IMG/VR virus record: IMGVR_UViG_3300033153_001873
Coordinates: 1 to 24,111 of that record
Direction: 5' to 3' (one strand)
Source of the DNA: a virus
DNA: 24,111 bases
Below, piece after piece: positions 1 to 24,111 of this stretch. The stretch's first letter is position 1. The number at the start of each line of letters is the position of its first letter. A model generated the notes under the pieces. The model was not told the origin of the DNA. It made no database searches and saw nothing but the letters and a program-made list of their open reading frames with translations. The position numbers and the translations under genes were made by a program.

Positions 1-45
1 TCCTCCGTCCGGGACAACATCCAGCTACCTCGTTTCCCTATCTGA
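1..45 (+). CDS. possible 3' end of an upstream gene (partial)
   Basis: Frame 1 is open from the window edge and stops at TGA 43-45. Its codons mostly end in C or G, like the real genes here, while frame 3 (stop 60-62) has poor third-position GC. This could therefore be the last 14 codons of a gene cut by the window edge. The stretch is too short to prove coding or suggest a function. Frame 2 is also open from base 2 into the gene at 59, so an upstream start for that gene cannot be fully excluded. Confidence 0.25.
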   Translation, partial: SSVRDNIQLPRFPI

Positions 46-51
46 TAGTGT
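43..51 (+). promoter_or_regulatory. extended -10 promoter (TGA-TAGTGT) for the terminase operon
   Basis: TG at 43-44 plus one base precedes the hexamer TAGTGT (46-51), which ends 7 bases before the ATG at 59. A start site 7-8 bases after the hexamer would fall on or beside the ATG, so the transcript would be leaderless. No Shine-Dalgarno is seen before 59. The core ATCTGATA recurs at 10536 and 11464, and TCTGATA at 13107. No convincing -35 box is visible. Confidence 0.5.
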
Positions 52-58
52 TACCACC

Positions 59-421
59 ATGATCGGACTCAATATCCTGCTCGTGGCCCTCTCTGTGGCG
101 GTTCTGGCGCTCATTCCGTGGGTATGGCGGTACTTTGAGCATATTCCGGGCCTCAGGGGCGATATGGAGCGAATGACAGGGTGGATCGACACGAATGCCG
201 GTCATATCCTCGATATTGAGCGGGATATGGCCGAAATGAAGGCAGATCGGGCCAAATCGGCCGAATATGCGCCGGATGAGCCGGATTTGAGCCAACATGC
301 GCCGATCGGGACCGATATCTCGCATTTCTCGGCCCCAGACGCCCCAATCGACCCTATGGACGGGCAGATCCCGTACATTGACACCAACTGGCAGAACCCG
401 TTGGGGGATGAAGATGTATGA
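59..421 (+). CDS. small membrane-anchored protein, holin- or spanin-like candidate
   Basis: This is a 120-residue protein with one hydrophobic segment at the extreme N-terminus (about residues 4-23, ending in a WVWRYF aromatic/basic boundary). A charged stretch rich in Asp, Glu and Met follows (about 34-70, possible short coiled coil), then an acidic, Pro/Asp-rich tail. That implies a single membrane anchor with the rest on one side. It is the first gene of the terminase operon. In T7-like phages the holin and spanin genes flank the terminase genes, so a lysis role is reasonable by position only. The ATG at 59 is chosen because a -10 hexamer ends 7 bases upstream. I do not recognise the family; a membrane-bound accessory protein is equally possible. 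Confidence 0.75.
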   Translation: MIGLNILLVALSVAVLALIPWVWRYFEHIPGLRGDMERMTGWIDTNAGHILDIERDMAEMKADRAKSAEYAPDEPDLSQHAPIGTDISHFSAPDAPIDPMDGQIPYIDTNWQNPLGDEDV

Positions 422-623: not shown

Positions 624-861
624 CGAAGAGGCAACACAGCGGATCCAAGCCGAAACCGAACGCCTGTTCGAGGCTTTGCTCGCCAAGGCCCACCACATTC
701 TCAAGGCCGGAACAACGCAGAACCAGATCGCCCTCATCAGACAGGTGATCCCCGTACTCATGAAGGAGATGGCGGACTCCAAGTCCAAGGAAGAGAACGT
801 CGAGCAGCAGAAAGCCCTCGATGACCTCTTCGCTCAGGCCCGCAAGTCGTTTGAGAAGTAA
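616..861 (+). CDS. probable small terminase subunit
   Basis: This 81-residue, almost wholly helical charged protein lies immediately upstream of the large terminase, whose ATG overlaps its TAA stop by one base (TAATG). Residues about 8-50 look like two amphipathic helices around a Gly-Thr-Thr turn; the C-terminus is a Lys/Glu-rich helix. Size and position match small terminase subunits of short-tailed phages (T7 gp18 is about 90 residues), which bind phage DNA and hand it to the large subunit. No helix-turn-helix is obvious, so the call rests on position, size and helical character. Its start overlaps the preceding gene by 8 bases. Confidence 0.5.
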   Translation: MSDEEATQRIQAETERLFEALLAKAHHILKAGTTQNQIALIRQVIPVLMKEMADSKSKEENVEQQKALDDLFAQARKSFEK

Positions 862-2510
862 TGGACCTCAAGCCGTTCGTGGAATCGCTCACGATTCTCG
901 ACAAGAACATCAACCTCGTCCCGTTCCAAGCGAACTGGGCACAAGAGGCGTATCTGGCTGAGGTCGAACGCCAGTTCGATGAGACGGGCGTGTTCCGTGG
1001 GATCGTGCTCAAAGCTCGGCAGTTGGGTCTCAGCACCCTCACCGAAGCCTGTGCATACTCAATGGCGTTCATCATGCAGAACTACCGGGCACTGATCGTC
1101 GCCCACGAGTCCGAGGCGTCCCGCAACCTGCTCAAAATGACGAAGCGGTACCACCAGTACTCGCCGTGGTCCGACAACTACGAACTCAAGCACGACACAA
1201 GGAACGATCTGGAATGGGAAGCGAACGGATCCAGCATCAAGGTTGCTACTGCGGGGAAAAAGGGAAGTGCTGGTGTTGGACGATCCTCGACAAACCACTT
1301 CATCCACGCCTCCGAGGTAGCTTTCTGGGACGATGCGGAGACCGTGTGGACCGGCCTGTCGCAGTCCATCCCACGTACAGCGGGTACGTTCGTCTGTTTC
1401 GAATCGACGGCAAATGGCACCGGCAACTTCTTCCACCGAATGTGGGAAGAAGCCGAAGCTGGGGAGAACGAGTACGCACCACTCTTCTATCCGTGGTGGA
1501 AGCACTATGAGTACACAGCCGAGTTTGCGAAGCTCCTAATCACCGATCCGGGCCTGCTGGACGAAGACGAGGAAGCCCTCAAAGACCTCCTTTGGAAGGA
1601 CGGACGGGGCGACGAGGTCAACTCCCGCATCATCTGGCGCCGCTGGGCCATTAGGAACCTCTGCAACAACAACCTCCTCATGTTCATGCAGGAGTACCCG
1701 TCCACACCCGAGGAAGCCTTCATTGCCTCTGGTATGAACGTATTTCCGCATGAGAGACTCAAACAGTGCTTTGATCGTTCTCCGGGATTTAGCGGGTACT
1801 TGTTCCGTAACGGGGATGAGATCACTTTCAAGGGAGACCCTCATGGTCCTCTAAAACTCTTTGCACGGCCTTCGGCCGCTGCTTCATACGTCATTGGTGG
1901 AGACCCGACGAAAACGGTACGAGGGGATTACGCCTGCGCCCAGATCCTGAACCGGCACACGATGGAACAGGTGGGGATCTGGAGAGGCAAGACCTCACCG
2001 GGCACCTTTGCAGAAGAGTTGTACAAGATGGGGCGCTATTTCAACGATGCACTCATCGTCCCTGAGATCGAAGGCCCCGGCCACACGACTGTCGGCATGC
2101 TCATGGGCATGAACTACCCGAACATTTACCGGCGAGGCAAGGTTGACAAGGCACGAAATAGTCCAAACGCGAACTACGGTTGGTCCACTGGCGCTCACAC
2201 GAAAGAGCTGGCGGTCGGGTGGCTCCTCCAGCACGTCGTTAACACTGACCTCGTTATTCACGACTCACATACTTTCAGTGAGATGCGTGATTACGTCACC
2301 GTGGACTCGGGAGGTTACGGTCCAGCTGACGAAAAACACGGCCATGATGACACGGTCATGGCGCTGGCGATCGCTATTACAGGCCATGCGACATCCGGCC
2401 CCCCGCCGCAGCCGGAAGATCGTACGATCGGAGACATAGTGGACCGAATGAACAACATCGAAGACCAGTCAGGCGATCCCTACGGAGATATCTACGATGC
2501 CAACGTATGA
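861..2510 (+). CDS. terL: terminase large subunit (packaging ATPase and nuclease)
   Basis: This 549-residue protein has the two-domain layout of large terminases. The ATPase domain shows a variant Walker A, KARQLGLST (residues 51-59), a Walker B-like segment around HASEVAFWDD (149-158) with Glu152 as candidate catalytic carboxylate, and a coupling motif FESTANG (180-186). The nuclease domain shows acidic residues in RNase H-like order: Asp348 in GGDPTK, Glu402/Glu404 in PEIEGPG, and Asp496-Asp497 in HGHDDT. The enzyme translocates DNA into the prohead through the portal and cuts the concatemer. Length is typical of the family. Translation is coupled to the small gene upstream (TAATG), and the zinc-ribbon gene starts inside its 3' end. 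The assignment is firm; I cannot tell the packaging mode (cos, pac or terminal repeat). Confidence 0.95.
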   Translation: MDLKPFVESLTILDKNINLVPFQANWAQEAYLAEVERQFDETGVFRGIVLKARQLGLSTLTEACAYSMAFIMQNYRALIVAHESEASRNLLKMTKRYHQYSPWSDNYELKHDTRNDLEWEANGSSIKVATAGKKGSAGVGRSSTNHFIHASEVAFWDDAETVWTGLSQSIPRTAGTFVCFESTANGTGNFFHRMWEEAEAGENEYAPLFYPWWKHYEYTAEFAKLLITDPGLLDEDEEALKDLLWKDGRGDEVNSRIIWRRWAIRNLCNNNLLMFMQEYPSTPEEAFIASGMNVFPHERLKQCFDRSPGFSGYLFRNGDEITFKGDPHGPLKLFARPSAAASYVIGGDPTKTVRGDYACAQILNRHTMEQVGIWRGKTSPGTFAEELYKMGRYFNDALIVPEIEGPGHTTVGMLMGMNYPNIYRRGKVDKARNSPNANYGWSTGAHTKELAVGWLLQHVVNTDLVIHDSHTFSEMRDYVTVDSGGYGPADEKHGHDDTVMALAIAITGHATSGPPPQPEDRTIGDIVDRMNNIEDQSGDPYGDIYDANV

Positions 2511-2811
2511 GTACAAGTGTAAGAACGACCATGTGACGGTCATGATCCAGTCCATGGACCAGCCCCGGCCCTGCGATCTGCTGTGCGAAGACTGCGGACT
2601 GCTGGCTACACGCCGGTTCTCGTTCGACTTCACCCCAATCCAGAACGAGATCCATTCCCCCAGCGTCGGGAAGCACGGATCCACCCGGTCCTACAACACA
2701 GCTCGGGACCGGCTCTCGGCAGAACACTCGGAGCGTACGGGGCAAGCCGTGACATTCGAGACCTTTGATGCTAGGGACTCGGACCAAGACCCCACAAAGA
2801 AGCTAAAGTAG
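2497..2811 (+). CDS. FmdB-like zinc-ribbon protein
   Basis: This 104-residue protein begins MPTYEYKC, the hallmark start of FmdB-type zinc ribbons. Candidate metal ligands are Cys8, Asp11 or His12, Cys30 and Cys33 (CEDCG), with an extra Cys26. The first knuckle, normally CxxC, reads C-K-N-D-H here, so one cysteine appears replaced. Residues 45-104 are polar and Lys/Asp-rich, with no recognised domain. FmdB-like ribbons are small putative regulators or nucleic-acid-binding modules whose exact role is generally unclear. The gene overlaps terL by 14 bases and precedes the portal gene, so it is expressed with the packaging genes. A role in packaging or late transcription is inference. Confidence 0.8.
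   Translation: MPTYEYKCKNDHVTVMIQSMDQPRPCDLLCEDCGLLATRRFSFDFTPIQNEIHSPSVGKHGSTRSYNTARDRLSAEHSERTGQAVTFETFDARDSDQDPTKKLK
2804..2809 (+). promoter_or_regulatory. -10 hexamer TAAAGT, predicted leaderless start of the portal gene
   Basis: TAAAGT overlaps the stop codon of the zinc-ribbon gene and ends 6 bases before the GTG start of the portal gene at 2816. No purine-rich Shine-Dalgarno stands at a useful distance. The spacing matches the other TAnnnT-N6-8-start sites here, so RNA would begin at or next to the GTG. No -35 element was recognised. Confidence 0.4.
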
Positions 2812-2815
2812 AGCC

Positions 2816-4579
2816 GTGGCACTCGACCCTCGCTCCCCTGCGCTCGTCATGGACGCTCTTTCGCTGTTCAACTATGCGAAAGAGAAGAAGCGCCCACTGC
2901 TCAAGAAGTGGATCACGAACTACAACGTGGTCCACAACCGGACGTGGAGCAAGTTCCGTGGTACCGGGTACCCGAAGACTGAAATCCCAGAGATCTACCC
3001 GATTCTGGCGTCCATCACCGCATGGGAGACCGACCAGAACCCTCAGTACTCGGTCACGTCCGAAATGCCGCCGAACTCGCCGTTCGCCATCTCATACGCC
3101 ACCCTCGCCAAGGATCTCGAATGGATCCTGAACACGAACTGGGAAGCGTTGGACTACTCCAACACCGCCCAAACTGTCCTCTGGGACGGCGAGATGTACG
3201 GCATCGGGTTCGCTAAGAACATCTGGTCACCACATACGACTGGTGGCCTCGGTGACGTGCAGATGTGCCGTGTTGACCCGTTCAACATGTACCTCGACCC
3301 GGACGCACGGGCTTGGAAAGACGTTCAGTTCCTCATCGAAACCAAGACCTGCACGAAGGAAGAGGTCAAAAAGCGGTTCCCGAAGGCCCGTGTCGATGAG
3401 TTGTACTTCTCGTCCGACACCCCTGACGGCCCCACACAGCTGGACCAGACCAACAATCCCGGTGCCCAGCGCCCCAACCTCTCACGCTTCCCCACTCCAA
3501 CCACCACAAACAACCCGACGACCACGAACGTCACGAGCACCAAAGCCAAGTACGACATGCCGTCGTCACTGGACAACTCGAACGTCGTCATCATGGAGAT
3601 GTGGTACCAGAAGCTGACGAACTCTGGGTTGACGAACGATAACGACCCAACCCCTGAGACCCCGAACAAGTCTGAAAAGCAGAACGAATGGTTCTGCCTT
3701 GTGTTCTGTGGTGACCAGATTCTCATGCACAAGTCGGCAGAGGAACTCATGGGTGTCAACATGCACCCGTACGCCCGCTACTGCCCCTTGGAAGAAGGCG
3801 AACTCTATGGCTACAGCCTCGTCGAGCAGCTGGCTCCCATGCAGATTTCTATCAACCGACTTTTTGCCTCGGTGGAGCAGAACGCTTGGCTGTCCGGTAA
3901 TCCGATCCTCGTCCAGAAAGATGGGCGTCGTACCAGCATCTCTAATCGTCCCGGTGAAAAGATTGAAGTCAACGATCCGAATCAGGACGTACGCTGGCTG
4001 ACCCCGCCGTCGATCTCTGCCCAGCACATCGAAGTCATCAACAAGCTGATTGAGGAGATGGAACGCATCTCCGGTATGAGTGCGATTGTGCGTGGAGCCA
4101 GCCCTGAAGGTCGCCCATCTGAAGGTGTTGTGAACACCATTCAGGACTCGGCCTTCGTGCGGATCCGTCAACGCCTGCGTAACTACGAGCGGTTCCTCCG
4201 TGAATGCGCTTTGATGCAGGCTTCACTCATCACCCAGTTCTACGACCAAGATCGCGTCATGTCCCGTATCGGGGATGACGGTGAAGGAACCTCGCTACAG
4301 ATCACGGAATCCCATTTCTATGTGCCCGGACCAGATGGAGTCGAACCCCTCAAATACAACCTCCGTGTCAGGGCTGGAGCGAGTGACGCTATCGGTCGAG
4401 AAGCCCGCCTTGCCATGTACGAACGCCTGTTTGCCATTGGGGCGATTGACCACGAGTCACTCCTCAAACTGTCCCGCATACCGGGCTGGCATGAGATCGC
4501 CCAGAAAGTGACACAAGAGAAGACCGCAGCGGGTACGATGGGGCAACCGCCTACGCAGAGAGCAGCTGCACGACGATGA
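2816..4579 (+). CDS. portal protein
   Basis: This 587-residue protein lies directly after the terminase genes. The segment at about residues 143-190 (GGLGDVQMCRVDPFNMYLD, then a DVQFLIETKTC strand and a TKEEVKKRFP helix) is the conserved wing/stem pattern of portal proteins. The long helix near residues 400-470, with ISGMSAIVRG and an NYERFL segment, fits the stem and crown region. A Thr/Asn/Pro-rich low-complexity insert (about 224-242) separates the two halves. The portal forms a dodecameric ring at one capsid vertex, nucleates prohead assembly and is the docking site of the terminase. The start is GTG. The stop overlaps the next ATG (ATGA). Length is within the usual range for short-tailed phage portals. 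Confidence 0.9.
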   Translation: MALDPRSPALVMDALSLFNYAKEKKRPLLKKWITNYNVVHNRTWSKFRGTGYPKTEIPEIYPILASITAWETDQNPQYSVTSEMPPNSPFAISYATLAKDLEWILNTNWEALDYSNTAQTVLWDGEMYGIGFAKNIWSPHTTGGLGDVQMCRVDPFNMYLDPDARAWKDVQFLIETKTCTKEEVKKRFPKARVDELYFSSDTPDGPTQLDQTNNPGAQRPNLSRFPTPTTTNNPTTTNVTSTKAKYDMPSSLDNSNVVIMEMWYQKLTNSGLTNDNDPTPETPNKSEKQNEWFCLVFCGDQILMHKSAEELMGVNMHPYARYCPLEEGELYGYSLVEQLAPMQISINRLFASVEQNAWLSGNPILVQKDGRRTSISNRPGEKIEVNDPNQDVRWLTPPSISAQHIEVINKLIEEMERISGMSAIVRGASPEGRPSEGVVNTIQDSAFVRIRQRLRNYERFLRECALMQASLITQFYDQDRVMSRIGDDGEGTSLQITESHFYVPGPDGVEPLKYNLRVRAGASDAIGREARLAMYERLFAIGAIDHESLLKLSRIPGWHEIAQKVTQEKTAAGTMGQPPTQRAAARR

Positions 4580-6081: not shown

Positions 6082-6083
6082 CC

Positions 6084-7004: not shown

Positions 7005-7012
7005 TACTGACG

Positions 7013-7018
7013 TAGACT
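7013..7018 (+). promoter_or_regulatory. -10 hexamer TAGACT, predicted leaderless start
   Basis: TAGACT ends 6 bases before the ATG at 7025, in the 20-base gap after the LamG-like gene. There is no Shine-Dalgarno. The same hexamer with the same 6-base spacing precedes the 1417-residue protein gene (19028-19033). Confidence 0.5.
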
Positions 7019-7024
7019 TAGGCC

Positions 7025-9319
7025 ATGTCTACCTATGACACCGGCACATTCGATTCCGGCACGTTTGATGCTCCCGGTGAACTAGGTGGACTTGGAGGTT
7101 CCTCGTCACAGATTGACGCTGAACTGACGCAGGCTCGCTCCTGCCAGATGAACGAAGCTGCGAGCGGCGGCACAGGGTTCCGTGACGGGGAAACCACATG
7201 GATCTCCCACCGTCGCCACGTCAACACCACTCTTCGTGACGTAGCAGCGTTCCGGTTCAAGATATCTGTCGATGTCGGGTCTGCTGACTCCATTGACGCA
7301 GGCGAGTTCCTTTACTACTGGGCTGCGATAAATCAGGATGCTGCCTGCTCCGTTGTGGTTGTAGCCTGTGACGACCCGATTGGCTCTGCAGCTACGAACT
7401 CGCCCAAAGACCTGTACGACTCATACGCTGGGTCCAGTGCGATTGCCCATACTTCAATAGACAACAACAGCACCACCGTTGCGAACACGGTGGATGGGGC
7501 CGACCTCAACACCATGTTGGGAGAAGCTCTCGATAACGCTACGTGGACAGGCACTGAGAAGTACATCGCTGTTGTCATGCAGGGCGACAGCGGTGGCCCT
7601 ACCAACGCTCAGACTCAAGGCGGGGTCTCTGACACGAACCCTGCCACGCTGACGTTCACGGCCACCACAACGATCCCTCCGGTTCAGGAGACTGGCAACG
7701 CTCCCAAAGCTACGTCCCACGAGATCAACGTGTCCGGGTTCCACTGGATCGGCCGCACTGACATCTCATACGACGACGGGCTGGCAGGGCTGGAGGATCA
7801 ACGCAACTACGAGCGGTTCGATCCCATCACCACGATCAACAACACTGTGCATGTCTTCTTTGCTGGTGGCGGCTACGGACAGGTTCTCTCATACTCCCAG
7901 CAGCACCGGGACGTTCTCCTCGCACAGGGCTACTCGTACATCGACGCCAACTACAAGACCACTGGCCTGTACAACGACGCTGTATTCAACGAGAACCAGA
8001 ACCTCGGTTACACATGGCCGCAGCCGATTCAGGACAGCATCTGTCTTGTAGCCCACATCGTCAACGACGACAACGGTGACGGTGACACCGACTACTACCT
8101 GTCAGGCCACAGTGCTGGCTCCCATGTCGCCCTCTCCACCGCCCTGTTCCTCAACGACGAGACCTACTACCAGTCGAACTGCACCCACGAGTACACCCGC
8201 CAGTCCACGTTCTACGGGCTGATGACAGACAACTACCAGTTCGGCTTCGATCAAGGTGTCCCGTCACGTCAGAACCTCAAGCCGCCGAAGGGTGTGTATG
8301 GGTTCTCCACGCCGATCAACCTGCAAGGCACCTACCAAGACACCTCTCTCTCCTCTGCTGTACGAACCAACCTCCGCAACGCACTGGAAGCCCTGTCTGG
8401 TGGAGTGGAAGGTTCGTTCTCTGGTGGTGCCCCCATCAACGACTACGGCGACACAGACCTCTACCTCAACGGTGAGTTCGACCTTCAGGACGCCTACGAC
8501 GGTGGCATGAGAGACTCCCGTTCGGTCTACAACCGGCGTCCCCAGCTTGACCCCCACGGGTTCGGCACCAAGATCGGGACTGGCCGCCACTCGTTCCCAT
8601 GCCCAGTACTCATCGTTGAGGGTTGCGACTCCCGCTACTACGCCTTCAACAACCCGTCACTCCCCTCTGGCCCGTTCGGTCAGGGCGACAACGTGATTGG
8701 CAACACCTCTGGCAACTGGGAAGGAATGGCAGATGCACTGGATAACGCTGGTCACCCATACACGCCAGCGCCAAATGCTGAAGATGCGACGTACGGTTCG
8801 GCATTCACACCCTCCACGGATCGTTGGTCGGGTGACGAAGAAGACCTGAGCGCAGGCCCAGTCGTCTTCACCTCCTACGACGCCGCCGGTATCTCCGGTA
8901 TCGAAGGGCTTGAGTCAGGCCACGACAACAACTACTACTACGAGGGCAAGACGATCCACACCATCAAGGCTGGTGGTTTGGTTGACAAGTGGATCGCTCA
9001 GGTGGAAGGCCCGACCACAGTCTCGATCGCAACTCATGTTGAACCCGCTGTGTCCTCTGCCGGGTACAACGGAGAGGTTGCTTCCATCCCGATTCTTGTC
9101 GGTAGCGGTCAGATTGAGACACTCACCAGCGTGGACTCGTCCCCGACGGGCATCATCTTGGAAGGCCGACTTGCGATCCCCGGCGAGCAGATCGTAACTT
9201 TCACGGCCACAACTGGTGACATCACCGGCATTACCCCACCCACTCCACCTCCTCCTTCGGAGGCTGGGCCGAGAATCCCGAACATTCCAACCATCCCGCA
9301 GGTACCCAGTATCGGATAG
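7025..9319 (+). CDS. tail protein with an alpha/beta-hydrolase (esterase) domain
   Basis: This 764-residue protein has three regions. Residues 1-220 are beta-rich and begin with a Gly/Asp/Thr repeat (DTGTF-DSGTF) typical of minor tail proteins. Residues about 270-660 form an alpha/beta-hydrolase of the carboxylesterase type: an oxyanion loop FFAGGGYG (278-285), a GYSYIDANYK strand, and the nucleophile elbow GHSAG with Ser363. Asp535 follows the strand CPVLIVEGCD, and His633 in SGHD is the likely third triad member (His645 is an alternative). A beta domain follows (about 660-735), then a Pro-rich tail. Likely role: an adsorption protein that removes ester groups from host-surface polysaccharide or lipid. 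The substrate is unknown. A lysis esterase is an alternative because the amidase gene is next. Confidence 0.85.
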   Translation: MSTYDTGTFDSGTFDAPGELGGLGGSSSQIDAELTQARSCQMNEAASGGTGFRDGETTWISHRRHVNTTLRDVAAFRFKISVDVGSADSIDAGEFLYYWAAINQDAACSVVVVACDDPIGSAATNSPKDLYDSYAGSSAIAHTSIDNNSTTVANTVDGADLNTMLGEALDNATWTGTEKYIAVVMQGDSGGPTNAQTQGGVSDTNPATLTFTATTTIPPVQETGNAPKATSHEINVSGFHWIGRTDISYDDGLAGLEDQRNYERFDPITTINNTVHVFFAGGGYGQVLSYSQQHRDVLLAQGYSYIDANYKTTGLYNDAVFNENQNLGYTWPQPIQDSICLVAHIVNDDNGDGDTDYYLSGHSAGSHVALSTALFLNDETYYQSNCTHEYTRQSTFYGLMTDNYQFGFDQGVPSRQNLKPPKGVYGFSTPINLQGTYQDTSLSSAVRTNLRNALEALSGGVEGSFSGGAPINDYGDTDLYLNGEFDLQDAYDGGMRDSRSVYNRRPQLDPHGFGTKIGTGRHSFPCPVLIVEGCDSRYYAFNNPSLPSGPFGQGDNVIGNTSGNWEGMADALDNAGHPYTPAPNAEDATYGSAFTPSTDRWSGDEEDLSAGPVVFTSYDAAGISGIEGLESGHDNNYYYEGKTIHTIKAGGLVDKWIAQVEGPTTVSIATHVEPAVSSAGYNGEVASIPILVGSGQIETLTSVDSSPTGIILEGRLAIPGEQIVTFTATTGDITGITPPTPPPPSEAGPRIPNIPTIPQVPSIG

Positions 9320-9322
9320 GAT
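9317..9322 (+). promoter_or_regulatory. -10 hexamer TAGGAT, predicted leaderless start of the amidase gene
   Basis: TAGGAT begins on the stop codon of the esterase-domain gene and ends 6 bases before the ATG at 9329. The intervening CGTGAG is at most a poor Shine-Dalgarno. This promoter would let the amidase be transcribed separately from the tail gene. Confidence 0.4.
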
Positions 9323-9328
9323 CGTGAG

Positions 9329-9874
9329 ATGGCTATCACAGTTCTCGAAAACGGTTTCGTCTTTGTTCCACGCCCCGACTGGGACTACGACGCAGACTAC
9401 CCCTCAGCATCCCTACGCACTCCTGTGTCCACGGTGTACATCCACCACACTGTCACCAACCCCACAGCGAACCCCTGCAACGACGCCCGAACCGTTGAAC
9501 GAGTCCTCGACCAGCGTGGCCTTTCGGGTTACAACTACCTCTCCCACCCTGACGGAACGATTCTGGAACTGGCTGGAGAGAAACGTGGAGCGCATACCAA
9601 GGGTCAGAACTCCACGTCGATAGCCATCTCGCTGATCGGCAACTATGACCATCTTCAGCCCACTCTCATGCAGCTTGCTAACATTGCAAGGTGCATCAAC
9701 CTCCTTCGTCTGAAGGGCGTCCTCGTGCCGGACTTGGAGAAAATCCAGATCCTCCCGCACTCTGCTGCCCCCGGTGCGGCTACCGCCTGTCCCGGTGCCA
9801 ATGTAAGGCTCCCCCGCATAAATGGCCGTACCGCCGTTGAGTGGATTCGGTGGTTTGCTGCAACCGGCGTTTGA
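9329..9874 (+). CDS. N-acetylmuramoyl-L-alanine amidase (endolysin or wall-entry enzyme)
   Basis: This 181-residue, single-domain protein of the Amidase_2/PGRP fold cleaves the bond between N-acetylmuramic acid and L-alanine in peptidoglycan. Visible motifs: YIHHT (residues 37-41) with zinc ligand His39, GYNYLSHPDGTILE (67-80), the core strand SIAISLIGNY (97-106), and PHS...ATACPG with zinc ligands His144 and Cys154. The usual His-Arg-Asp reads His-Ser here. The length matches the catalytic domain alone, so there is no separate wall-binding domain, as in T7 lysozyme. It follows the esterase-domain gene with its own predicted promoter. It may act as endolysin, or as a virion enzyme since it lies among tail genes. 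The family call is firm; its timing is open. Confidence 0.92.
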   Translation: MAITVLENGFVFVPRPDWDYDADYPSASLRTPVSTVYIHHTVTNPTANPCNDARTVERVLDQRGLSGYNYLSHPDGTILELAGEKRGAHTKGQNSTSIAISLIGNYDHLQPTLMQLANIARCINLLRLKGVLVPDLEKIQILPHSAAPGAATACPGANVRLPRINGRTAVEWIRWFAATGV

Positions 9875-9880
9875 GTCGGT

Positions 9881-9886
9881 TACACT
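9881..9886 (+). promoter_or_regulatory. -10 hexamer TACACT (tandem copy), predicted leaderless start
   Basis: TACACT at 9881-9886 ends 7 bases before the ATG at 9894. A second TACACT follows directly (9887-9892). The gap after the amidase gene is 19 bases and contains no Shine-Dalgarno. The same hexamer in an extended -10 context occurs at 13111-13116. Confidence 0.45.
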
Positions 9887-9893
9887 TACACTC

Positions 9894-10037
9894 ATGGAAA
9901 ACCCGATCGTTGCAAAGGCGAACAAGCACCGGGGCGGCACGCAAATCGTCGTGTCCGTTCAGGAGTCGCACATCAACGGCAAGAACGGGAACGCTGCTGC
10001 CAATCCGGGTAGCTCTTACAAGCCGAAGAAGGGCTGA
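9894..10037 (+). CDS. 47-residue basic hypothetical protein
   Basis: A very short ORF (47 residues), Lys/Asn/Gly-rich, with a TQIVVSVQES strand, an INGKNGNAAANPGS linker and an SYKPKKG end. It has no transmembrane segment and no recognised domain. Support for coding comes from the -10 hexamer 7 bases upstream, the tight packing with the next small ORF (5-base gap), and the absence of any other ORF that would fill this region. The basic, unstructured look would suit a small nucleic-acid- or virion-associated peptide. Function unknown. Confidence 0.5.
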   Translation: MENPIVAKANKHRGGTQIVVSVQESHINGKNGNAAANPGSSYKPKKG

Positions 10038-10042
10038 CAATC

Positions 10043-10174
10043 ATGGCAAAGTCACAGGTCACCAAGGCCAAGGGCGCTCCGATCACCAAGCTCGGTGACA
10101 CTGGCGCAAAGAATCAGGGTCGCGATGAGAAGGCACAGTCCATCATCCCGAAGCCCTACGAACAGTCGAAGTAA
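10043..10174 (+). CDS. 43-residue basic hypothetical protein
   Basis: A short ORF of 43 residues, Lys/Gln-rich (MAKSQVTKAKGAP start, IIPKPYEQSK end), with no hydrophobic segment and probably unstructured. A possible ribosome-binding site, GAAGG, lies about 11 bases upstream, inside the end of the preceding 47-residue ORF. The start is 5 bases after that gene and the stop 6 bases before the next. Like its neighbour it is basic and ends in a Lys/Pro-rich tail, so the two may act together or be diverged copies; similarity is too weak to claim duplication. Function unknown. Confidence 0.5.
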   Translation: MAKSQVTKAKGAPITKLGDTGAKNQGRDEKAQSIIPKPYEQSK

Positions 10175-10180
10175 TCTCTC

Positions 10181-10531
10181 ATGGCCGTTCGGTCAACTAA
10201 CACGTACTCCGAGGGACTTCAGTCACTCATCCAAGACATTGCGTCCTTGCAGCTTGCACCGGACGCCAATGTTGAGTTCCTGATGCAGGTCCAGCAGATG
10301 ATTATCTCTGAGGCCCAAGCCCCCCTTCTTGCGCAGGCACAGGTGGCCCAACAGGGGCCACCTACACCCGGCAACGTCCAGCCCGCACCGCCCGTTCCCG
10401 GTGTTGGCGAGGGCGGGCCGGGTGGCCTTGCAGGTCTTCTCGGCGTAGGTGGTCCCGGTGGCGGCTCTGCTCCGCTACCTCCCGGCCCCGGTGGTGCAGC
10501 CCCCGGTGAGCTGGATCGCATTCTCGGCTGA
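10181..10531 (+). CDS. Pro/Gly-rich hypothetical protein
   Basis: This 116-residue protein has an N-terminal helical part (about 8-60: YSEGLQSLIQDIASLQL, then a FLMQVQQMIISEAQAPLLAQAQVAQ helix) and a C-terminal half made almost wholly of Pro and Gly with a few hydrophobics, ending ELDRILG. The tail is presumably a disordered linker and the last residues may be a binding motif. It lies just before the scaffold operon. The ribosome-binding site is poor, so it is probably translated by coupling from the small ORF 6 bases upstream. Function unknown; an assembly or minor virion role is a guess. Confidence 0.65.
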   Translation: MAVRSTNTYSEGLQSLIQDIASLQLAPDANVEFLMQVQQMIISEAQAPLLAQAQVAQQGPPTPGNVQPAPPVPGVGEGGPGGLAGLLGVGGPGGGSAPLPPGPGGAAPGELDRILG

Positions 10532-10534
10532 CCC

Positions 10535-10546
10535 CATCTGATACAG
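10535..10546 (+). repeat. 12-base direct repeat CATCTGATACAG, copy 1
   Basis: An exact 12-base word shared with 11463-11474. Each copy lies a few bases after a stop codon and before a highly expressed head gene (scaffold here, major capsid there). It contains the extended -10 element TGATACA, so it is best read as a shared promoter core. Confidence 0.6.
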
Positions 10547-10547
10547 T
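10539..10547 (+). promoter_or_regulatory. extended -10 promoter (TGA-TACAGT) for the scaffold gene
   Basis: TGA plus TACAGT (10542-10547) forms an extended -10 element. Counting 6-7 bases after the hexamer puts the predicted transcription start at about 10554-10555. That is inside the 5' arm of the hairpin at 10546-10575, so RNA started here would keep only two or three bases of that arm and the scaffold ribosome-binding site would stay open. Confidence 0.5.
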
Positions 10548-10581
10548 CCTCCTAGCACCCCATCGCTAGGAGGACTTTCTC
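10546..10581 (+). promoter_or_regulatory. perfect 11-bp hairpin that buries the scaffold ribosome-binding site; possible terminator
   Basis: GTCCTCCTAGC (10546-10556) is the exact reverse complement of GCTAGGAGGAC (10565-10575), with the 8-base loop ACCCCATC. The 3' arm contains AGGAGG (10568-10573), the Shine-Dalgarno of the scaffold gene, 8 bases before its ATG; the 5' arm contains the complementary CCTCCT. TTTCT follows the stem, so it may also act as a weak rho-independent terminator for read-through RNA. Pairing is seen directly; the regulatory role is inferred. Confidence 0.65.
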
Positions 10582-11460: not shown

Positions 11461-11558
11461 CTCATCTGATACAGCATGGTCACTTGTTGCGATGAGATAC
11501 GGCTACTATTACTTCGGTAAGTAACCACTACTGATCGCACCTGATAGGAGAGCGACTC
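11461..11558 (+). promoter_or_regulatory. promoter and leader of the major capsid gene
   Basis: This 98-base gap is the most AT-rich stretch nearby. It holds the extended -10 word TGATACAGC (11467-11475). It also holds a candidate promoter TTGTTG (11484-11489), 17 bases, TATTAC (11507-11512); TACTAT at 11504-11509 is an alternative -10. A short UUCG-tetraloop hairpin, TTAC-TTCG-GTAA, lies at 11509-11520. A TGATAGGAG word (11542-11550) ends 8 bases before the ATG and supplies the Shine-Dalgarno AGGAG (11546-11550). The sites are read by eye; which promoter is used is unknown. Confidence 0.5.
11463..11474 (+). repeat. 12-base direct repeat CATCTGATACAG, copy 2
   Basis: Identical to 10535-10546. 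It starts two bases after the scaffold stop codon. Here the -10 hexamer reads TACAGC and no hairpin follows, unlike copy 1. Confidence 0.6.
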
Positions 11559-12521
11559 ATGGCAACACCCATTGGTGCCGATCATATCTCGGCCATCGTT
11601 AACCGGTACCTGATGCCGGACATCATCGACCTTGCGTACGACGGAAACCCGTTGTTCTACCGCTTGCACAACAGCAACCGGCGCATGGTGGACGGTGGAC
11701 CGCACATCGAGCAGCCCGTGATGAACTCGCAGTTCACCGCTGGTGGATCGTTCTCGGATCTTGAGACCCTCGACATGACGCCGCAGGACACGCTCCGCAC
11801 CGTCGCTTGGGACTGGAAAGAGAAGTACGTCCCGGTTGCGTTCTCGAACCTCACCATGGTGAAGCTGAACACCTCTGACTCGATCGCCAACGGCGTTGAG
11901 GTTCAGGTGCAGCAGGCTTCGATGACCATGGCTGAGCTTCTCGGTCAGGGCCTCTACTCCGATGGCAGCGATGCCAAGGAGATCGACGGTCTTCAGTCCG
12001 CCATCGACACCACTGGCACCTACGGCGGCATCGCTCGCTCTGGCTCCACTGGCTGGTGGAACGGTGTCACCGACTCGAACCTGAACCTGACGCAGGACTT
12101 CGCCACGGCGATGCCCGAACTCAACACGGCTCAGACCTCGGTCACGGTTGGCGGTCGTTTCCCGACCATCGCAGTCACCAACTCCGACGTGTACAACGCG
12201 GTTTGGAACATGCTGGTTGAGAAGCAGAACTTCTACACCGTCAACGAGAAGGACACGCAGCTCGCCGCTGCTGGCTTCAACAACTTCCTCTTCAACGGCA
12301 CCCCGTTCGTTGTGGATCCGAAGTGCCCTGCCGAAGAGCTGTACTTCCTCAACGAGGACTTCATCAAGCTCGTCGTCACGCCGCTCTCGGACTTCCGCAT
12401 GGAGCCGTTCCAGCAGGCATTCAATCAGGCTGCCATCGGAGCGAAGCTGCTCTGGACCGGTAACCTGATCGTCACCGCACCCAAGCTCCAGTACCGTGGT
12501 ACTGGCGTACTCAGCGCCTAA
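11559..12521 (+). CDS. major capsid protein
   Basis: This 320-residue protein follows the scaffold and precedes a decoration-like gene. The pattern fits a capsid protein of the HK97 fold: an N-terminal region (YLMPDIIDLAYDGNPLFYRL), an extended-loop-like stretch with TVAWDWKEKYVPVAFSNL (about 86-103), a long spine-type helix (about 112-135, IANGVEVQVQQASMTMAELLGQ), and a beta-rich C-terminal part ending ApKLQYRGTGVLSA. It forms the icosahedral shell. The Shine-Dalgarno AGGAG is 8 bases upstream. No N-terminal delta domain precedes it, consistent with a separate scaffold. Assignment by position, length and pattern; close relatives were not searched. Confidence 0.88.
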   Translation: MATPIGADHISAIVNRYLMPDIIDLAYDGNPLFYRLHNSNRRMVDGGPHIEQPVMNSQFTAGGSFSDLETLDMTPQDTLRTVAWDWKEKYVPVAFSNLTMVKLNTSDSIANGVEVQVQQASMTMAELLGQGLYSDGSDAKEIDGLQSAIDTTGTYGGIARSGSTGWWNGVTDSNLNLTQDFATAMPELNTAQTSVTVGGRFPTIAVTNSDVYNAVWNMLVEKQNFYTVNEKDTQLAAAGFNNFLFNGTPFVVDPKCPAEELYFLNEDFIKLVVTPLSDFRMEPFQQAFNQAAIGAKLLWTGNLIVTAPKLQYRGTGVLSA

Positions 12522-12530
12522 TAGGAGGCG
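12515..12530 (+). promoter_or_regulatory. small hairpin over the capsid stop codon and the next ribosome-binding site
   Basis: CGCCT (12515-12519) can pair with AGGCG (12526-12530) across a 6-base loop, covering the capsid TAA (12519-12521) and part of AGGAGG (12523-12528). Ribosomes finishing the capsid gene would melt it, coupling decoration synthesis to capsid synthesis. The stem is only 5 bp, so this is tentative. Confidence 0.3.
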
Positions 12531-12533
12531 AAC

Positions 12534-13022: not shown

Positions 13023-13071
13023 TTCATCCCACCCGAGGGGACTCCTCCACCCCTCACCTCCCACTGAGATT

Positions 13072-13106
13072 GACCTCCCGGTATCACCGGGGGGTCTTTC
13101 TCGTTT
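13072..13106 (+). terminator. rho-independent terminator after the capsid operon
   Basis: GACCTCCCGGT (13072-13082) pairs with ACCGGGGGGTC (13086-13096) over 11 positions with one T-G wobble and a 3-base loop. It is followed by the T-rich tail TTTCTCGTTT (13097-13106). A weaker 6-bp inverted repeat, GAGGGG...CCCCTC, lies upstream at about 13035-13055. The rest of the 102-base gap holds only the next promoter. Confidence 0.85.
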
Positions 13107-13107
13107 C

Positions 13108-13116
13108 TGATACACT
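13108..13116 (+). promoter_or_regulatory. extended -10 promoter (TGA-TACACT)
   Basis: TGA-TACACT lies two bases after the terminator T-tract and ends 8 bases before the ATG at 13125. No Shine-Dalgarno precedes that ATG, so a leaderless or nearly leaderless transcript is predicted. It shares the TCTGATA core with the sites at 42, 10538 and 11466. Confidence 0.55.
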
Positions 13117-13124
13117 CCTAACTC

Positions 13125-13715
13125 ATGGAGATGAATCCGACCACCCCAGTCCGTGTCAAGTCGAACGAGGACGAAGAGTTCAAGTTCAAGTTCGAGCGTG
13201 AGACCTACGTCCTTGGACCGAACGCTGAGGTGTTCTGGCCGTGGAACGTGGCATGTCATCTGTTGGGTGACCCGACACTCAAGAACGAGCCTGCGTTCGC
13301 CAACGCCGATTACGTCCGTAAGCACGCCCAGAACATGTTGGGTGGCGGCAAGCGGATCGGTTCTGGTGGCGTGCTCCACAACCCCATCTCGTGGGATAAG
13401 TGGGAGCCGGTCAAGCCTTCCATCGACGTGTTCTCCATGGACGGCACCCAGATCCTGATGGCGTACCAGACGCCTCACAACGCTGAGACGTTCACCACCG
13501 GGTACACCGAGTCGGACATGAAGGTCAAGATCGCCCAGCTTGAACAACAGATGCAGAACATGAAGATGTCGATGGAGCAGGACGGAACCCCGTTCGTAGC
13601 TACCGAGTCTTCAGCTGGCGAGGATCAGGTCACGACGATGGAGGAGTTGCCCGAAGATGGCGGACCCAAGACTCGACCCCGACGACGTACTCCGCAGGCT
13701 CCAGCTAGCTCGTAA
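13125..13715 (+). CDS. hypothetical protein, possible head or connector component
   Basis: In this 196-residue protein the N-terminal 100 residues look like a mixed alpha/beta domain (EEFKFKFERETYVLGPNAEVFWPWNVACHLLG is the core, with conserved-looking Trp and Pro). Residues about 125-150 form a Met/Gln-rich amphipathic helix (MKVKIAQLEQQMQNMKMSM), and the last 45 residues are acidic then basic and probably disordered. Its place just after the capsid operon suggests a head or connector accessory protein, but I do not recognise the family. The ATG at 13125 is chosen from the promoter spacing; an in-frame ATG at 13131 is an alternative. Its 3' end overlaps the next gene by 59 bases. Confidence 0.75.
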   Translation: MEMNPTTPVRVKSNEDEEFKFKFERETYVLGPNAEVFWPWNVACHLLGDPTLKNEPAFANADYVRKHAQNMLGGGKRIGSGGVLHNPISWDKWEPVKPSIDVFSMDGTQILMAYQTPHNAETFTTGYTESDMKVKIAQLEQQMQNMKMSMEQDGTPFVATESSAGEDQVTTMEELPEDGGPKTRPRRRTPQAPASS

Positions 13716-13932
13716 AGACCGGGCTGAGATCGAGATCCAGTATCACGACGCTCGGATCAACGGCTTTCTCAACGCCCGTGCAGAGGGCGCTAAGACGGTC
13801 AAGGAGATGGAGTTCTACGGGGACTACCATGCTCTGAACCTTCACCCAGAGCTGATTCATGCCCGTGTAGTGGTAGCATCGTTGGAAGACGAACTGAGAG
13901 TGGCATGCCTTCCGACAACCTCGAATGGGTAG
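13657..13932 (+). CDS. small helical hypothetical protein
   Basis: This 91-residue protein is nearly all helical (DPDDVLRRLQLARKDRAEIEIQY, then a short GFLNARAEGAKTVKEMEFY segment, then HPELIHARVVVASLEDELRVA), like a two- or three-helix bundle. It overlaps the preceding gene by 59 bases and the nozzle-like gene by 28, in different frames. GGAGGAG (13640-13646) upstream supports an independent start. Third-position GC in its non-overlapping part fits coding. Possible roles are a small connector or a chaperone for its large neighbour; no family recognised. Confidence 0.65.
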   Translation: MADPRLDPDDVLRRLQLARKDRAEIEIQYHDARINGFLNARAEGAKTVKEMEFYGDYHALNLHPELIHARVVVASLEDELRVACLPTTSNG

Positions 13933-16753: not shown

Positions 16754-16755
16754 GT

Positions 16756-16761
16756 TAGAAT
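16756..16761 (+). promoter_or_regulatory. -10 hexamer TAGAAT, predicted leaderless start of the adaptor gene
   Basis: TAGAAT is one mismatch from TATAAT and ends 6 bases before the ATG at 16768. The 14-base gap between genes has no good Shine-Dalgarno (GAGTGG adjoins the ATG). It is the best match to the consensus -10 among the nine sites. Confidence 0.5.
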
Positions 16762-16767
16762 GAGTGG

Positions 16768-17616
16768 ATGCAGCTTCAGGAACTCCGCTCTCAGCTTCGT
16801 GACCGTCTGAACGAGCAGACCCCTGCTGCGTGGACGGATGCTGAGCTTGATACGTGGCTGAATGAAGCTGTGCGAGATATCAGTATCCGCACGGAATGCA
16901 ACATGTACAGGTCTGAGGTGATTGTGCCTGAGAACGTGTACCTGATTCAGTTCCCGCCGATCACCGCCGAGTACTACACCATCTCTGAATCCGGTTCGAT
17001 TATCGGTAGCCACGACTCCACCGACATCCAAGCTGTGCGGATCAGCAGGTGTGCGTGGGTGGACGACACCGCTTCGACGTTCAGTACTGTCCCTGACGGC
17101 GGCACCCTGTCAATCACCTCCGCTTCCGCCACCGACCCGTTCCTCAACAACTACGACGACGAGTACCAGAATCAGGAATACCCCATGGAGTACCGGGGTA
17201 TCAACACGATGGACTCGATGAAGGGGTCAGGCCAGCAGACCTCGAACGGCATCCCCACGTTCTACTCCACATGGGGTCAGTCGGGGAACATCAAGATCGT
17301 CCTGTACCCCAAGCCTTCCGACACCGGCCACCTCCGCATCTACTTCTACGGCACCCCTGCTCCCATGTCTGACGACACGGATGAAGACGGGTTGCCTCGT
17401 GGCTGGGAATCACTCATCCTCGCCTACGCCCAGTACCGTGCCCAGATGCGGGACGGCAACCAGATGTGGACCGCTGCGAAGGGTGACTACGAGCAGCTGA
17501 TCGCTGACTACGAGGCACAGTTCAAGAGGCTGACTGATGCCAATGAACCCCTGTTCACCGACGCCTTCTGGCACGGCATGAACGACTACAACCAAGCCTA
17601 CGATGGGTGGTACTGA
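16768..17616 (+). CDS. head-tail adaptor (tail tubular A / gp4-like)
   Basis: This 282-residue protein has the two halves expected of adaptor proteins. The N-terminal helices (residues 1-45) carry LQELRSQLRDRLNE and the WTDAELDTWLNEAVRDI motif, which is widespread in phage adaptors. A beta-rich middle follows, then a C-terminal helical pair near residues 208-255 (PRGWESLILAYAQYRAQM and YEQLIADYEAQFKRL). The adaptor binds the portal and extends the channel toward the nozzle (T7 gp11 and P22 gp4 are functional parallels). It comes after the nozzle-like gene rather than before it, unlike the T7 order. The next gene starts on its stop (TGATG). Confidence 0.78.
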   Translation: MQLQELRSQLRDRLNEQTPAAWTDAELDTWLNEAVRDISIRTECNMYRSEVIVPENVYLIQFPPITAEYYTISESGSIIGSHDSTDIQAVRISRCAWVDDTASTFSTVPDGGTLSITSASATDPFLNNYDDEYQNQEYPMEYRGINTMDSMKGSGQQTSNGIPTFYSTWGQSGNIKIVLYPKPSDTGHLRIYFYGTPAPMSDDTDEDGLPRGWESLILAYAQYRAQMRDGNQMWTAAKGDYEQLIADYEAQFKRLTDANEPLFTDAFWHGMNDYNQAYDGWY

Positions 17617-19022: not shown

Positions 19023-19027
19023 TCCCC

Positions 19028-19033
19028 TAGACT
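19028..19033 (+). promoter_or_regulatory. -10 hexamer TAGACT, predicted leaderless start
   Basis: TAGACT ends 6 bases before the ATG at 19040; the spacer is GGGGCG. It is identical in sequence and spacing to the site before the esterase-domain gene (7013-7018). The GGGG could also act as a very close Shine-Dalgarno. Confidence 0.45.
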
Positions 19034-19039
19034 GGGGCG

Positions 19040-22000: not shown

Positions 22001-23293
22001 GCGGTTCCTCGTGGCCTGTATCAGGACGGCCAGTTCATGCCGCCCGATCCGACAGCAAGGTTCGTTCCCCCCTCCCAGCCTGTAGCCGACCCTACCGCTG
22101 GGAGGGCGGGAACAGCAGACCCGTCCATGTTTGACGACTGGGCAGGTCCGGGGTTCCAGCAGGACATCCCCACCAACGCTGGTGTTGTGGATGACTTCAC
22201 TGACTGGGCGCTCCCCAAGGGCGTGTCCGGCGACGATTACCTCAAGGCTGGGGCAAGGCTCGGGTTCGACAACGAAGCGTTGAGGGCTGCCGCCACCGGC
22301 GGCACTGCTCTCGGTGCGCCCCAGTTCCTGAACTCAATGAAGGCCAACGCCAAGGGTCGCATCCCTGCCTACGCAAAGGCAGTGGATGACTTGGCGGCGG
22401 TTGGCAAGCTCGGTGCCAAGCCCGGATTCGCCAAGTTCGGACTCAAGGCTGGCCCCGGATTCGTTGCTGGTCTTGGCCTCGAAGCTGCGATCAACAAGTT
22501 TGATGACACGGCTACGGACACGGATCCGACTGCTGGCCTCAAGGGCGCAGGTCGTGGCGCTCTCCTCGGCTCAGGCATCGGCTCCATGATCGCCCCCGGT
22601 ATCGGTACTCTCATCGGTGGCGGTCTTGGCGCTATCGGTGGTGGCCTCTGGGGTGTGCTTGGCAACGACCAAGGCCCCGAAGGTGGCATGGTTAGCGAAG
22701 GTGACTTCGTCAATGACTTCCGCCGTCAGGCAGAGAGGGACGGCACCGACCCTCGCATCGTTGACAACATCATGTCCCAGTACCGGGCACAGCGTCAGGC
22801 CCCGGAACATCTGTTCGGTGGCAAGAGCTACGACCAGTTGTCGGCAGATCAGATGCGTGCCTACAACACTGCGGCCCGTGCACTCCACCGTGATGTCAAC
22901 TCCATGTACTCACAGTGGGCTGGCACCCCTACCCCCACCCCGTTCTCACCTGACATCGAGAAGCTCGCCCGGTTCGCCACCATGGCAAACATGGGTAACA
23001 GCGAACTGGTACAGGCAGCACCTGAGTACGAGCGGGCAGGGCTGGCACAGTCTCTCGCCTTCGCACCCACCATGGCTCTCAGCGAGTACATGATGAGTCC
23101 GAACTACGCCCAGTACCAGCAGCAGCAGCAGGAAATGCTCATGGGTCGTCCCGGTTACGGGATGCCGATGATGGGTGGCAGCATGCCCGGTATGGGGATG
23201 AGTCCTCAGATGGGCGCATCCATGGCACCGCAGATGATGCAGGGTGCTATGGACCCGCAAGCCTTTACAGCTGCCGCTCTCGCAATGCCGTAA
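19040..23293 (+). CDS. giant internal virion / ejection protein, 1417 residues
   Basis: The largest complete gene here, similar in length to T7 gp16 (about 1318). Most of it is hydrophilic, with many Ala, Glu, Lys and Asp helices. A Pro-then-poly-Gly tract (PPPGGGGGGGGG, near residue 945) marks a flexible hinge. Near residues 1166-1210 is a glycine-zipper stretch (GALLGSGIGSMIAPGIGTL and GGGLGAIGGGLWGVLG), the type that inserts in membranes in ejection proteins and pore formers. The last 60 residues are Met/Gln/Gly-rich. I see no lytic transglycosylase or peptidase motif. Likely role: part of the channel that carries DNA through the envelope. A tape-measure protein is the alternative, but no tail-tube genes accompany it. 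Confidence 0.65.
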   Translation: MAKDAFDELGPSIELRGDKGYRIGKIIDDLLAGAIDDTEDVAKALANTGIELSPTMDSMAENVDGWILEFKDEKQLQEAFDVLLDNQSKLPAVNSTNKGGKTGFAAAFKDATTPALRKAGIELSDGAMTHNQAKKFVNDLIKEGFEASQKNYGFDPNTITALGKTPGVDSVESLLPDATKDQLARIVQTRKAPSAQLRADILTTIDEALDKKTKPTRPKGQSAPMVPDTEKLAAEKASTDELLARQATEADNAATRKAVGEFDSKTASLLDGAGEQKALPRRATVRPEDRKLRATQASLADDKIVDAAEYDSPTHKRFDARLDEKGRLPGDPAFKGRQSVGPRFTDIIDDLITRSPEGGRYVVDMEGLQELLDAGDEKSNQRLINEIGKRVDFPYDTPDMDANPELYKQVVDGEGNVSNRLIGQAGDEIPEHFRTYKLPSTEPDPTIETPASIQESIDAGVKKQAPVMDAVKRFAPDAYSDWEKIQNLSPAERKYAVASFDAKHGEQVNRLIGKLSGKYFPGSASSAGQLEMLPLSGQMLRGNTSYTAMSRLMEEAANLNPEVASLADQYSRVDGSGNAAPVTPEQREASQNAAQKRYDKLDAFDERNAGKAVAQNPKTARAVTPLTNRHFGPDMLAREALEKLERGESLNRVDHYMIEQQYADWIEDAGSTEEVRALEAEFIDVEDKIKADRFFNGTPGEEAVAVERGVQTGSGRYTHKKGDPAYVSKGGKELEKMAANGDVGAQDEIDRRAGNKAAKKGAGEAAAAAETTPPAKGVSGVEEPLDTPENPLDNSRHGSDGRRLRAKFNPEAAADAAEADYLNRGFVDEDMGAIARADEMGVELPDPRGAASATGEAPAATLLDEVAGAGQLGTEEMAEIDELVKAGMISPEAGDELKTKIKAVIDDPNIDTNVTPRGVPAGVKQDPGLEFGQRAAAAAGPDGPPPGGGGGGGGGGGISGEAPPTLLEEGPGLGRHGDQFLDSRGMGAVPRGLYQDGQFMPPDPTARFVPPSQPVADPTAGRAGTADPSMFDDWAGPGFQQDIPTNAGVVDDFTDWALPKGVSGDDYLKAGARLGFDNEALRAAATGGTALGAPQFLNSMKANAKGRIPAYAKAVDDLAAVGKLGAKPGFAKFGLKAGPGFVAGLGLEAAINKFDDTATDTDPTAGLKGAGRGALLGSGIGSMIAPGIGTLIGGGLGAIGGGLWGVLGNDQGPEGGMVSEGDFVNDFRRQAERDGTDPRIVDNIMSQYRAQRQAPEHLFGGKSYDQLSADQMRAYNTAARALHRDVNSMYSQWAGTPTPTPFSPDIEKLARFATMANMGNSELVQAAPEYERAGLAQSLAFAPTMALSEYMMSPNYAQYQQQQQEMLMGRPGYGMPMMGGSMPGMGMSPQMGASMAPQMMQGAMDPQAFTAAALAMP

Positions 23294-23296
23294 ACT
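23291..23296 (+). promoter_or_regulatory. -10 hexamer TAAACT, predicted leaderless start
   Basis: TAAACT starts on the stop codon of the 1417-residue protein gene and ends 6 bases before the ATG at 23303. There is no Shine-Dalgarno in the spacer AGCTCC. Confidence 0.45.
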
Positions 23297-23302
23297 AGCT
23301 CC

Positions 23303-24111
23303 ATGAGTGAGCAGCTGGGGTCGTTTATGAGGAAGTGGGGCCAAGCCCCACCGTCCTCCCCTGAGCAGACTGCCATCATGGAGTTGGATCAGCAGCGGGT
23401 TGCTCGTGGCAAGTTCCCTCTCTCTCAGGAACAGACGTTCGCTGCTGTTAGTGCGGCCACGAACAGGGAACAGTTCACTCCCACCCCTGAATCCAACATG
23501 TGGAACGTGCCGTCGAACGCGGTGTCGGACATCACGTCTCTTGTCCGGGGTATCCCTCAGCTGCCCATGGGGATCCTGAACCTCGGCAAGAACATCATGC
23601 AGGATCCGTTCGGCAGGCCCGAGGGTGGCAACATTGCGGATGCCAACATCCTTCAGGCCCTCCCCGGTGCGTTCATTGCCTCCGCAATCCTCCCCGGTGG
23701 TGTACCGGCAGGGGATTTGGCACGTCGTCCTGTCTCCGCTGCTCTTGATGCCCTCCCATTCGCCTCCAGTGGCGTCAACAGGGCTGCTCTCAACACCGTA
23801 AGGGGATTCCACCCCGGCGCACAGCTCCGCTCTCACGGCACAGCACAGCAGCTTAGAGCGAGGATGCAGCCCGGACGCATCGAAGGCAACGAGCTGTTCA
23901 ACCCGGACATCCCACTGCCCGAACTCAACCGTCAGCAGCGACGGGCCATGCAGGCAGTTATCGCATCGGGTGAAGGTGGCCGTGTCCTCCCCAACCTCGC
24001 CACCCGCCGTATCCTCCCCGGCCCACAGGGACGTTACCTCGAAGCAGACCAGCGTTGGCTGGCCCGTGCCAAGGAAAACCCGGCAGTCCGAGGGTTCGTC
24101 ACCAAACTCTC
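23303..24111 (+). CDS. N-terminal part of a large internal virion protein (truncated by the window)
   Basis: The reading frame is open from the ATG at 23303 to the window end (269 codons and two bases, no stop), so the gene is cut here and its real length is unknown. The protein starts MSEQLGSFMRKWGQAPPSSP. It has a hydrophobic Gly/Pro stretch (ILQALPGAFIASAILPGGVPAG, about residues 115-136) and an Arg/Gln-rich region after residue 160 (LNRQQRRAMQAVIASGEGG). Codon usage matches the other genes. Position and composition suggest a third ejection-type protein or another giant virion protein. The visible part has no recognised domain; enzymatic domains could lie downstream. Confidence 0.7.
   Translation, partial: MSEQLGSFMRKWGQAPPSSPEQTAIMELDQQRVARGKFPLSQEQTFAAVSAATNREQFTPTPESNMWNVPSNAVSDITSLVRGIPQLPMGILNLGKNIMQDPFGRPEGGNIADANILQALPGAFIASAILPGGVPAGDLARRPVSAALDALPFASSGVNRAALNTVRGFHPGAQLRSHGTAQQLRARMQPGRIEGNELFNPDIPLPELNRQQRRAMQAVIASGEGGRVLPNLATRRILPGPQGRYLEADQRWLARAKENPAVRGFVTKL

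Follow-up and report, generated by a model that had tools for sequence, protein, structure and literature searches.

The window, which is the whole stretch of 24,111 nucleotides analysed here, covers bases 1-24111 of a 44,266-base IMG/VR record (IMGVR_UViG_3300033153_001873) whose phage is labelled W in the comparisons. Its + strand carries a tailed phage's late module; the remaining record (L002 and L003) contains a tRNA-Asn and mostly minus-strand genes labelled early, among them those for a helicase, AAA ATPases and a metallophosphoesterase. These labels were derived from gene content and strand, not from expression data. When the whole window was searched for near-identical sequence among GenBank phages, there was no match; no close isolate is present there. 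The following late genes were assigned by PHROGs or Pfam matches:

861..2510, + strand: terminase large subunit gene (phrog_2, 4.5e-28)
2816..4579, + strand: portal protein gene, GTG start, predicted leaderless (phrog_156, 4e-39)
9329..9874, + strand: N-acetylmuramoyl-L-alanine amidase (endolysin-like) gene (PF01510, 1.5e-15)
11559..12521, + strand: major capsid protein gene with a Shine-Dalgarno (SD) leader (phrog_9953, 3.6e-49)
16768..17616, + strand: SU10-adaptor-like head-tail connector gene (PF24175, 4e-18)

The module also includes a scaffold-like protein gene at 10582 and two genes for large proteins with no assigned role (19040 and 23303), and an HTH-regulator-like gene (L002:3272-3568, record base 27271) ends the late cluster. 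Genes were called with a codon model blind to upstream sequence and trained on homologous ORFs, so the starts were not hand-picked. A late start was considered free when 3 nt or more separated it from the previous gene; 17 such starts were called in the record, 16 of those inside the window, more than the rough dozen counted in the initial annotation.

Upstream of nine starts of the window we found a TAnnnT hexamer, at the positions and offsets (6, 7 or 8 nt) given by the initial annotation:

46..51, + strand: TAGTGT, predicted -10 box (extended, TGA TAGTGT), 7 nt before the ATG of gene 59-421
2804..2809, + strand: TAAAGT, predicted -10 box, 6 nt before the portal gene 2816 (GTG)
7013..7018, + strand: TAGACT, predicted -10 box, 6 nt before gene 7025 (764 aa)
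9317..9322, + strand: TAGGAT, predicted -10 box, 6 nt before the amidase gene 9329
9881..9886, + strand: TACACT, predicted -10 box, 7 nt before the small gene 9894
13111..13116, + strand: TACACT inside TCTGATACACT, predicted extended -10, 8 nt before gene 13125
16756..16761, + strand: TAGAAT, predicted -10 box, 6 nt before the SU10-adaptor-like gene 16768
19028..19033, + strand: TAGACT, predicted -10 box, 6 nt before gene 19040 (1417 aa)
23291..23296, + strand: TAAACT, predicted -10 box, 6 nt before gene 23303

A tenth hexamer, TAAGAT, lies outside the window, where it precedes the ATG of the HTH-regulator-like gene by 6 nt. The hexamer is absent from free starts such as 10043 and 10181, and also from 10582, 11559 and 12534, which have SD leaders. 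At some junctions the hexamer overlaps the stop of the preceding gene: the last T of TAAAGT is the T of a TAG (2809-2811), TAGGAT before the amidase gene includes a TAG (9317-9319), and TAAACT before 23303 includes a TAA (23291-23293). Such sharing of bases makes for a very compact junction, also observed at L012:10333-10335 and L013:7025-7027.

In W, 9 of 17 free late starts carry TAnnnT at 6-8 nt, against 27 of 3382 other ATG/GTG codons (0.8%, Fisher p=1.3e-14). This share is about half, and not the "nearly all" first claimed; the remark that overlapped starts lack the hexamer largely stands (1 of 10 overlapped late starts has it), and none of the 22 early minus-strand starts shows it. The enrichment far above chance holds under four nulls (other codons, two kinds of shuffles and decoy ORFs). 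Dinucleotide shuffles of the 40 nt upstream, a check proposed in the initial annotation, match far less often than the observed 9, with a mean of 0.68 and a maximum of 4 in 5000. The hits are concentrated in position: in W, offset 6 has 6 starts, offset 7 has 3 and offset 8 has 1, and no other offset from 0 to 40 has more than 2.

Searches of IMG/VR with capsid, terminase and portal recovered the related phages A (G001, GC 55%), B (G002, GC 68%) and C (G003, GC 47%). The same peak is seen in phage B (3, 3 and 2 starts at offsets 6, 7 and 8, at most 1 elsewhere). With three related phages pooled, TAnnnT at 6-8 is present at 19 of 49 starts, against 0.30 expected, and ranks first of 17,920 three-letter pattern-offset combinations in a de novo ranking, so the pattern was not cherry-picked.

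It could be argued that the hexamer is a by-product of stop codons, the TAA or TAG of short junctions supplying a TA at the right place, and bases are indeed shared with the previous stop in three W hexamers (2816, 9329, 23303) and four more in A and B. We find this very hard to credit. Shuffles with the previous stop codon held fixed average 0.93 hits, with a maximum of 7 in 20000 and never the 9 found in W, and decoy ORFs, in which the first ATG/GTG lies near an in-frame stop, have TAnnnT in 4 of 348 cases (1.1%) in W and 0% in B. Most hexamers are also clear of the previous stop (59, 7025, 9894, 13125, 16768, 19040), and offsets 7 and 8 are used too. Mis-annotation of starts was likewise tested and rejected.

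Pairing with the anti-SD is weak at the hexamer starts, with a median of -2.3 kcal/mol against -6.95 at the other free late starts (p=0.006). The lack of a usable SD claimed for all nine holds at eight, which pair weaker than -5 kcal/mol, and fails at 9329, where a possible SD reaches -8.7 kcal/mol. Every start with a hexamer, whether in W, A or B, is an ATG or a GTG and never a TTG, which agrees with leaderless starts of the mycobacterial type (ATG/GTG, not TTG/CTG); in mycobacteria either codon is enough for a leaderless mRNA to be translated (PMC4633059). Upstream of the hexamers no -35 consensus can be seen, and a scan of 9800-13800 for the sigma-70 consensus (TTGACA/TATAAT) gave no match, as expected if the promoters are TAnnnT-only. 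In M. tuberculosis promoters, a -35 motif was likewise not found (PMC3898074).

In high-GC Actinobacteria and in Deinococcus-Thermus, TAnnnT about 12 bp upstream is the signature by which leaderless genes are recognised (Zheng 2011, PMC3160421), and its role as their -10 is also described in PMC3898074 (Cortes 2013) and PMC12340547 (Life Sci Alliance 2025). Features of the TA-led class of Zheng et al. 2011 are found in W: TAnnnT lies about 12 bp upstream, it exceeds dinucleotide shuffles, and the SD is lacking at eight of the nine window starts, 9329 being the exception. The W genes thus resemble those bacterial genes in the hexamer, the first T about 12 nt upstream, the lack of SD, the ATG/GTG starts and the lack of a -35 consensus; they differ in that the bacterial set is chromosomal and the W set comprises phage late virion and lysis genes.

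From these features we infer, with good confidence, that the hexamers are -10 boxes of the sigma-A type and that the late mRNAs they drive are leaderless, in the manner of Actinomycetota or Deinococcota. With a spacing of 6-8 nt the expected transcription start falls on the start codon, and a host-type sigma-A promoter with its -10 so placed would begin transcription at the ATG/GTG or within 1-2 bases of it. The ribosome would then bind the 5'-terminal RTG codon directly, and the late mRNA would be translated without an SD. About half of the free late (virion and lysis) genes thus appear to be read from mRNAs beginning at the start codon, and SD leaders would be retained by the early genes and by the head operon with scaffold and capsid. 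The wide leaderless use first suggested is well supported for many late genes by the statistics, the lack of SD and the conservation in A and B, but does not extend to the early genes (0/22) or the SD-led head genes.

The related phages keep the hexamer to different degrees. In phage B, 7 of 15 free late starts have it versus a background of 0.19%, though TA is rare in its DNA. Phage A has a weaker excess (3 of 17 free late starts, stop-fixed shuffle p=0.04), several of its starts orthologous to W hexamer starts being devoid of it, and phage C has mostly SD-like leaders with a single hexamer, at the portal. The comparison with related phages that the initial annotation called for is favourable for B and for several junctions, but weaker for A and nearly negative for C. 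The junctions compared are:

Portal: TAAAGT in W, TAACAT in A, TAAGGT in C
9894: TACACT in W, TAGGGT at offset 7 in A, TACCCT at offset 8 in B
13125: TACACT in TCTGATACACT in W; TCTGATACCCT at offset 7, leaderless, in B; TCTGATACGCT with an SD leader in A
16768: TAGAAT in W, TATGAT at offset 6 in B
19040: TAGACT in W, TAGGAT at offset 6 in A and at offset 7 in B
23303: TAAACT in W, TAGCAT at offset 6 (GTG start) in B
HTH-regulator-like gene (record base 27271): TAAGAT in W, TACGAT in B; leadered with SD in A

Equivalent junctions hold the T, A and T of the hexamer while the flanking bases differ. With W and B junctions paired by homology, or by position where homology is weak, 6 of 7 W-hexamer junctions also have a hexamer in B, versus 0 of 8 other junctions (p=0.0014); TAGGAT of the amidase gene is not kept in B. 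At 13125, all three of W, A and B have a TCTGATACnCT box ahead of the gene; in W and B the start is leaderless, and in A the box is followed by a leader with GGAGG. Since the box is common to the three phages whether leadered or leaderless, it behaves like a promoter, and the gain or loss of a leader seems to happen around it. The amidase of phage B is 73% identical to one encoded at L035:65-607, on a phage contig of 56.8 kb; the part examined has 47% GC and no further match to the W family, and an exchange of a lysis gene is possible.

The head genes (scaffold 10582, major capsid 11559 and the next gene, 12534) carry SD leaders. Around them we found:

10537..10547, + strand: TCTGATACAGT, predicted extended -10 of the scaffold-like gene 10582, which has a leader of about 30 nt with the SD AGGAGG
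11465..11472, + strand: TCTGATAC, candidate promoter of the major capsid gene, about 90 nt ahead of it; the gene is leadered with an SD
13072..13096, + strand: strong terminator-like GC hairpin followed by TTTCTCGTTT (T-rich tail), directly upstream of the TCTGATACACT predicted promoter of 13125

The TCTGATACAGT box is kept in A and B. TCTGATAC occurs three times in the window, always on the + strand and in gaps, and precedes both the scaffold and capsid genes (10537, 11465). Upstream of the capsid gene the sixth -10 position is C, and we consider this copy a candidate promoter only. In the scaffold leader (10548-10581), just downstream of the TCTGATACAGT box, an inverted repeat CCTCCTAGC...GCTAGGAGG contains the SD; it could hide the SD or serve as an attenuator.

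The hairpin at 13072-13096 is the one convincing terminator-like structure in the scanned sub-region 9800-13800. Transcripts that nest or overlap are therefore no less likely than separate units, and the division into many short independent units proposed in the initial annotation is unsupported. The scarcity of such hairpins there would also suit a different reading, in which the -10 boxes are real but long read-through mRNAs with coupling or reinitiation dominate, leaderless transcripts being a minor supplement. Only 9-20 nt separate most hexamer starts from the previous stop, which would allow reinitiation after translation of the upstream gene. Nevertheless, 13125 sits behind the hairpin and a 102-nt gap and is thus uncoupled, and most overlapping starts, where coupling would be expected, are without the hexamer, an SD being frequent among them. 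We regard dominance of read-through as improbable.

The leaderless reading with an ordinary host sigma-A has a somewhat stronger competitor, which we still judge unlikely: a phage-modified or alternative sigma factor could read the late promoters. This would explain why only late genes have hexamers (0/22 for the early ones), and the HTH regulator gene that closes the late cluster (L002:3272) has itself a leaderless-type start. However, high-GC hosts use TAnnnT as their ordinary -10, and PHROGs and Pfam scans revealed no phage sigma factor or RNA polymerase among the proteins scanned, with many early proteins giving no match.

An actinobacterial host is likely but unproven, and the leaderless reading would call for such a host or another competent in leaderless translation. 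For the early DUF7192 protein, 88 of 90 matching records are Mycobacterium and Gordonia phages; the early AAA ATPase has its best matches in Gordonia phages, with many other phages besides. The pair formed by these genes (L002:14991-17371) is common to Gordonia/Mycobacterium phages and a Manatee Spring podovirus record. The capsid and terminase have as best matches phages of proteobacteria and environmental phages. The capsid profile found no match in bacterial genomes; the amidase profile gave one weak match there, and neither scan found a prophage relative. The amidase match lies in a gammaproteobacterial MAG, which is uninformative for the host.

A phage with leaderless genes usually has just one, for example a repressor; the classic case is lambda cI, transcribed from PRM. 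Among annotated lambda starts, cI is the only one of 36 free starts with TAnnnT at 6-8 and served as a positive control; its -10 box lies 6 nt before the ATG (TAGATT TAACGT ATG), as in W, but this is one gene against about half of the free late genes. The late transcripts of Thermus phage P23-45 are leaderless. Its middle and late promoters belong to the extended -10 class, according to Berdygulova 2011 as cited in PMC7403470. W resembles P23-45 in having phage late genes behind extended -10 promoters with a short or no leader, but TAnnnT at 6-8 is found at only 3 of 52 free starts of P23-45 (first 50 kb, annotated starts). The other controls gave 2/38 (PA6), 0/38 (phiC31) and 0/39 (BFK20) with annotated starts, 0/18 (D29) and 0/12 (Gordonia Sephiroth) in late regions, and 3/40 and 0/15 in two distant environmental phages. 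The nine control phages have 0-3 such starts each, so the few well-known actinophages tested lack the pattern at the scale of W. Leaderless genes are known, but among the phages checked it is unusual to find them so widely used for late functions. No paper describing the pattern was found in the openly accessible literature; most subscription papers lay outside this scope, and novelty is provisional.

A further possibility, which we hold to be speculative and rather doubtful, is that the translation mode switches during infection, with early genes SD-led and many late genes leaderless. If so, a late change in ribosomes or initiation factors could favour the synthesis of virion proteins, and the trait would be gained and lost fast among relatives, according to the host. 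In practice, SD-based gene callers can misplace starts in phages of this kind, and TAnnnT enrichment at 6-8 nt may be a host clue for uncultivated phages. With portal, lysin and tail genes predicted to be leaderless, W would offer a natural test of the efficiency of leaderless translation at high expression, and its lineage one of how phages take up the initiation habits of their hosts.
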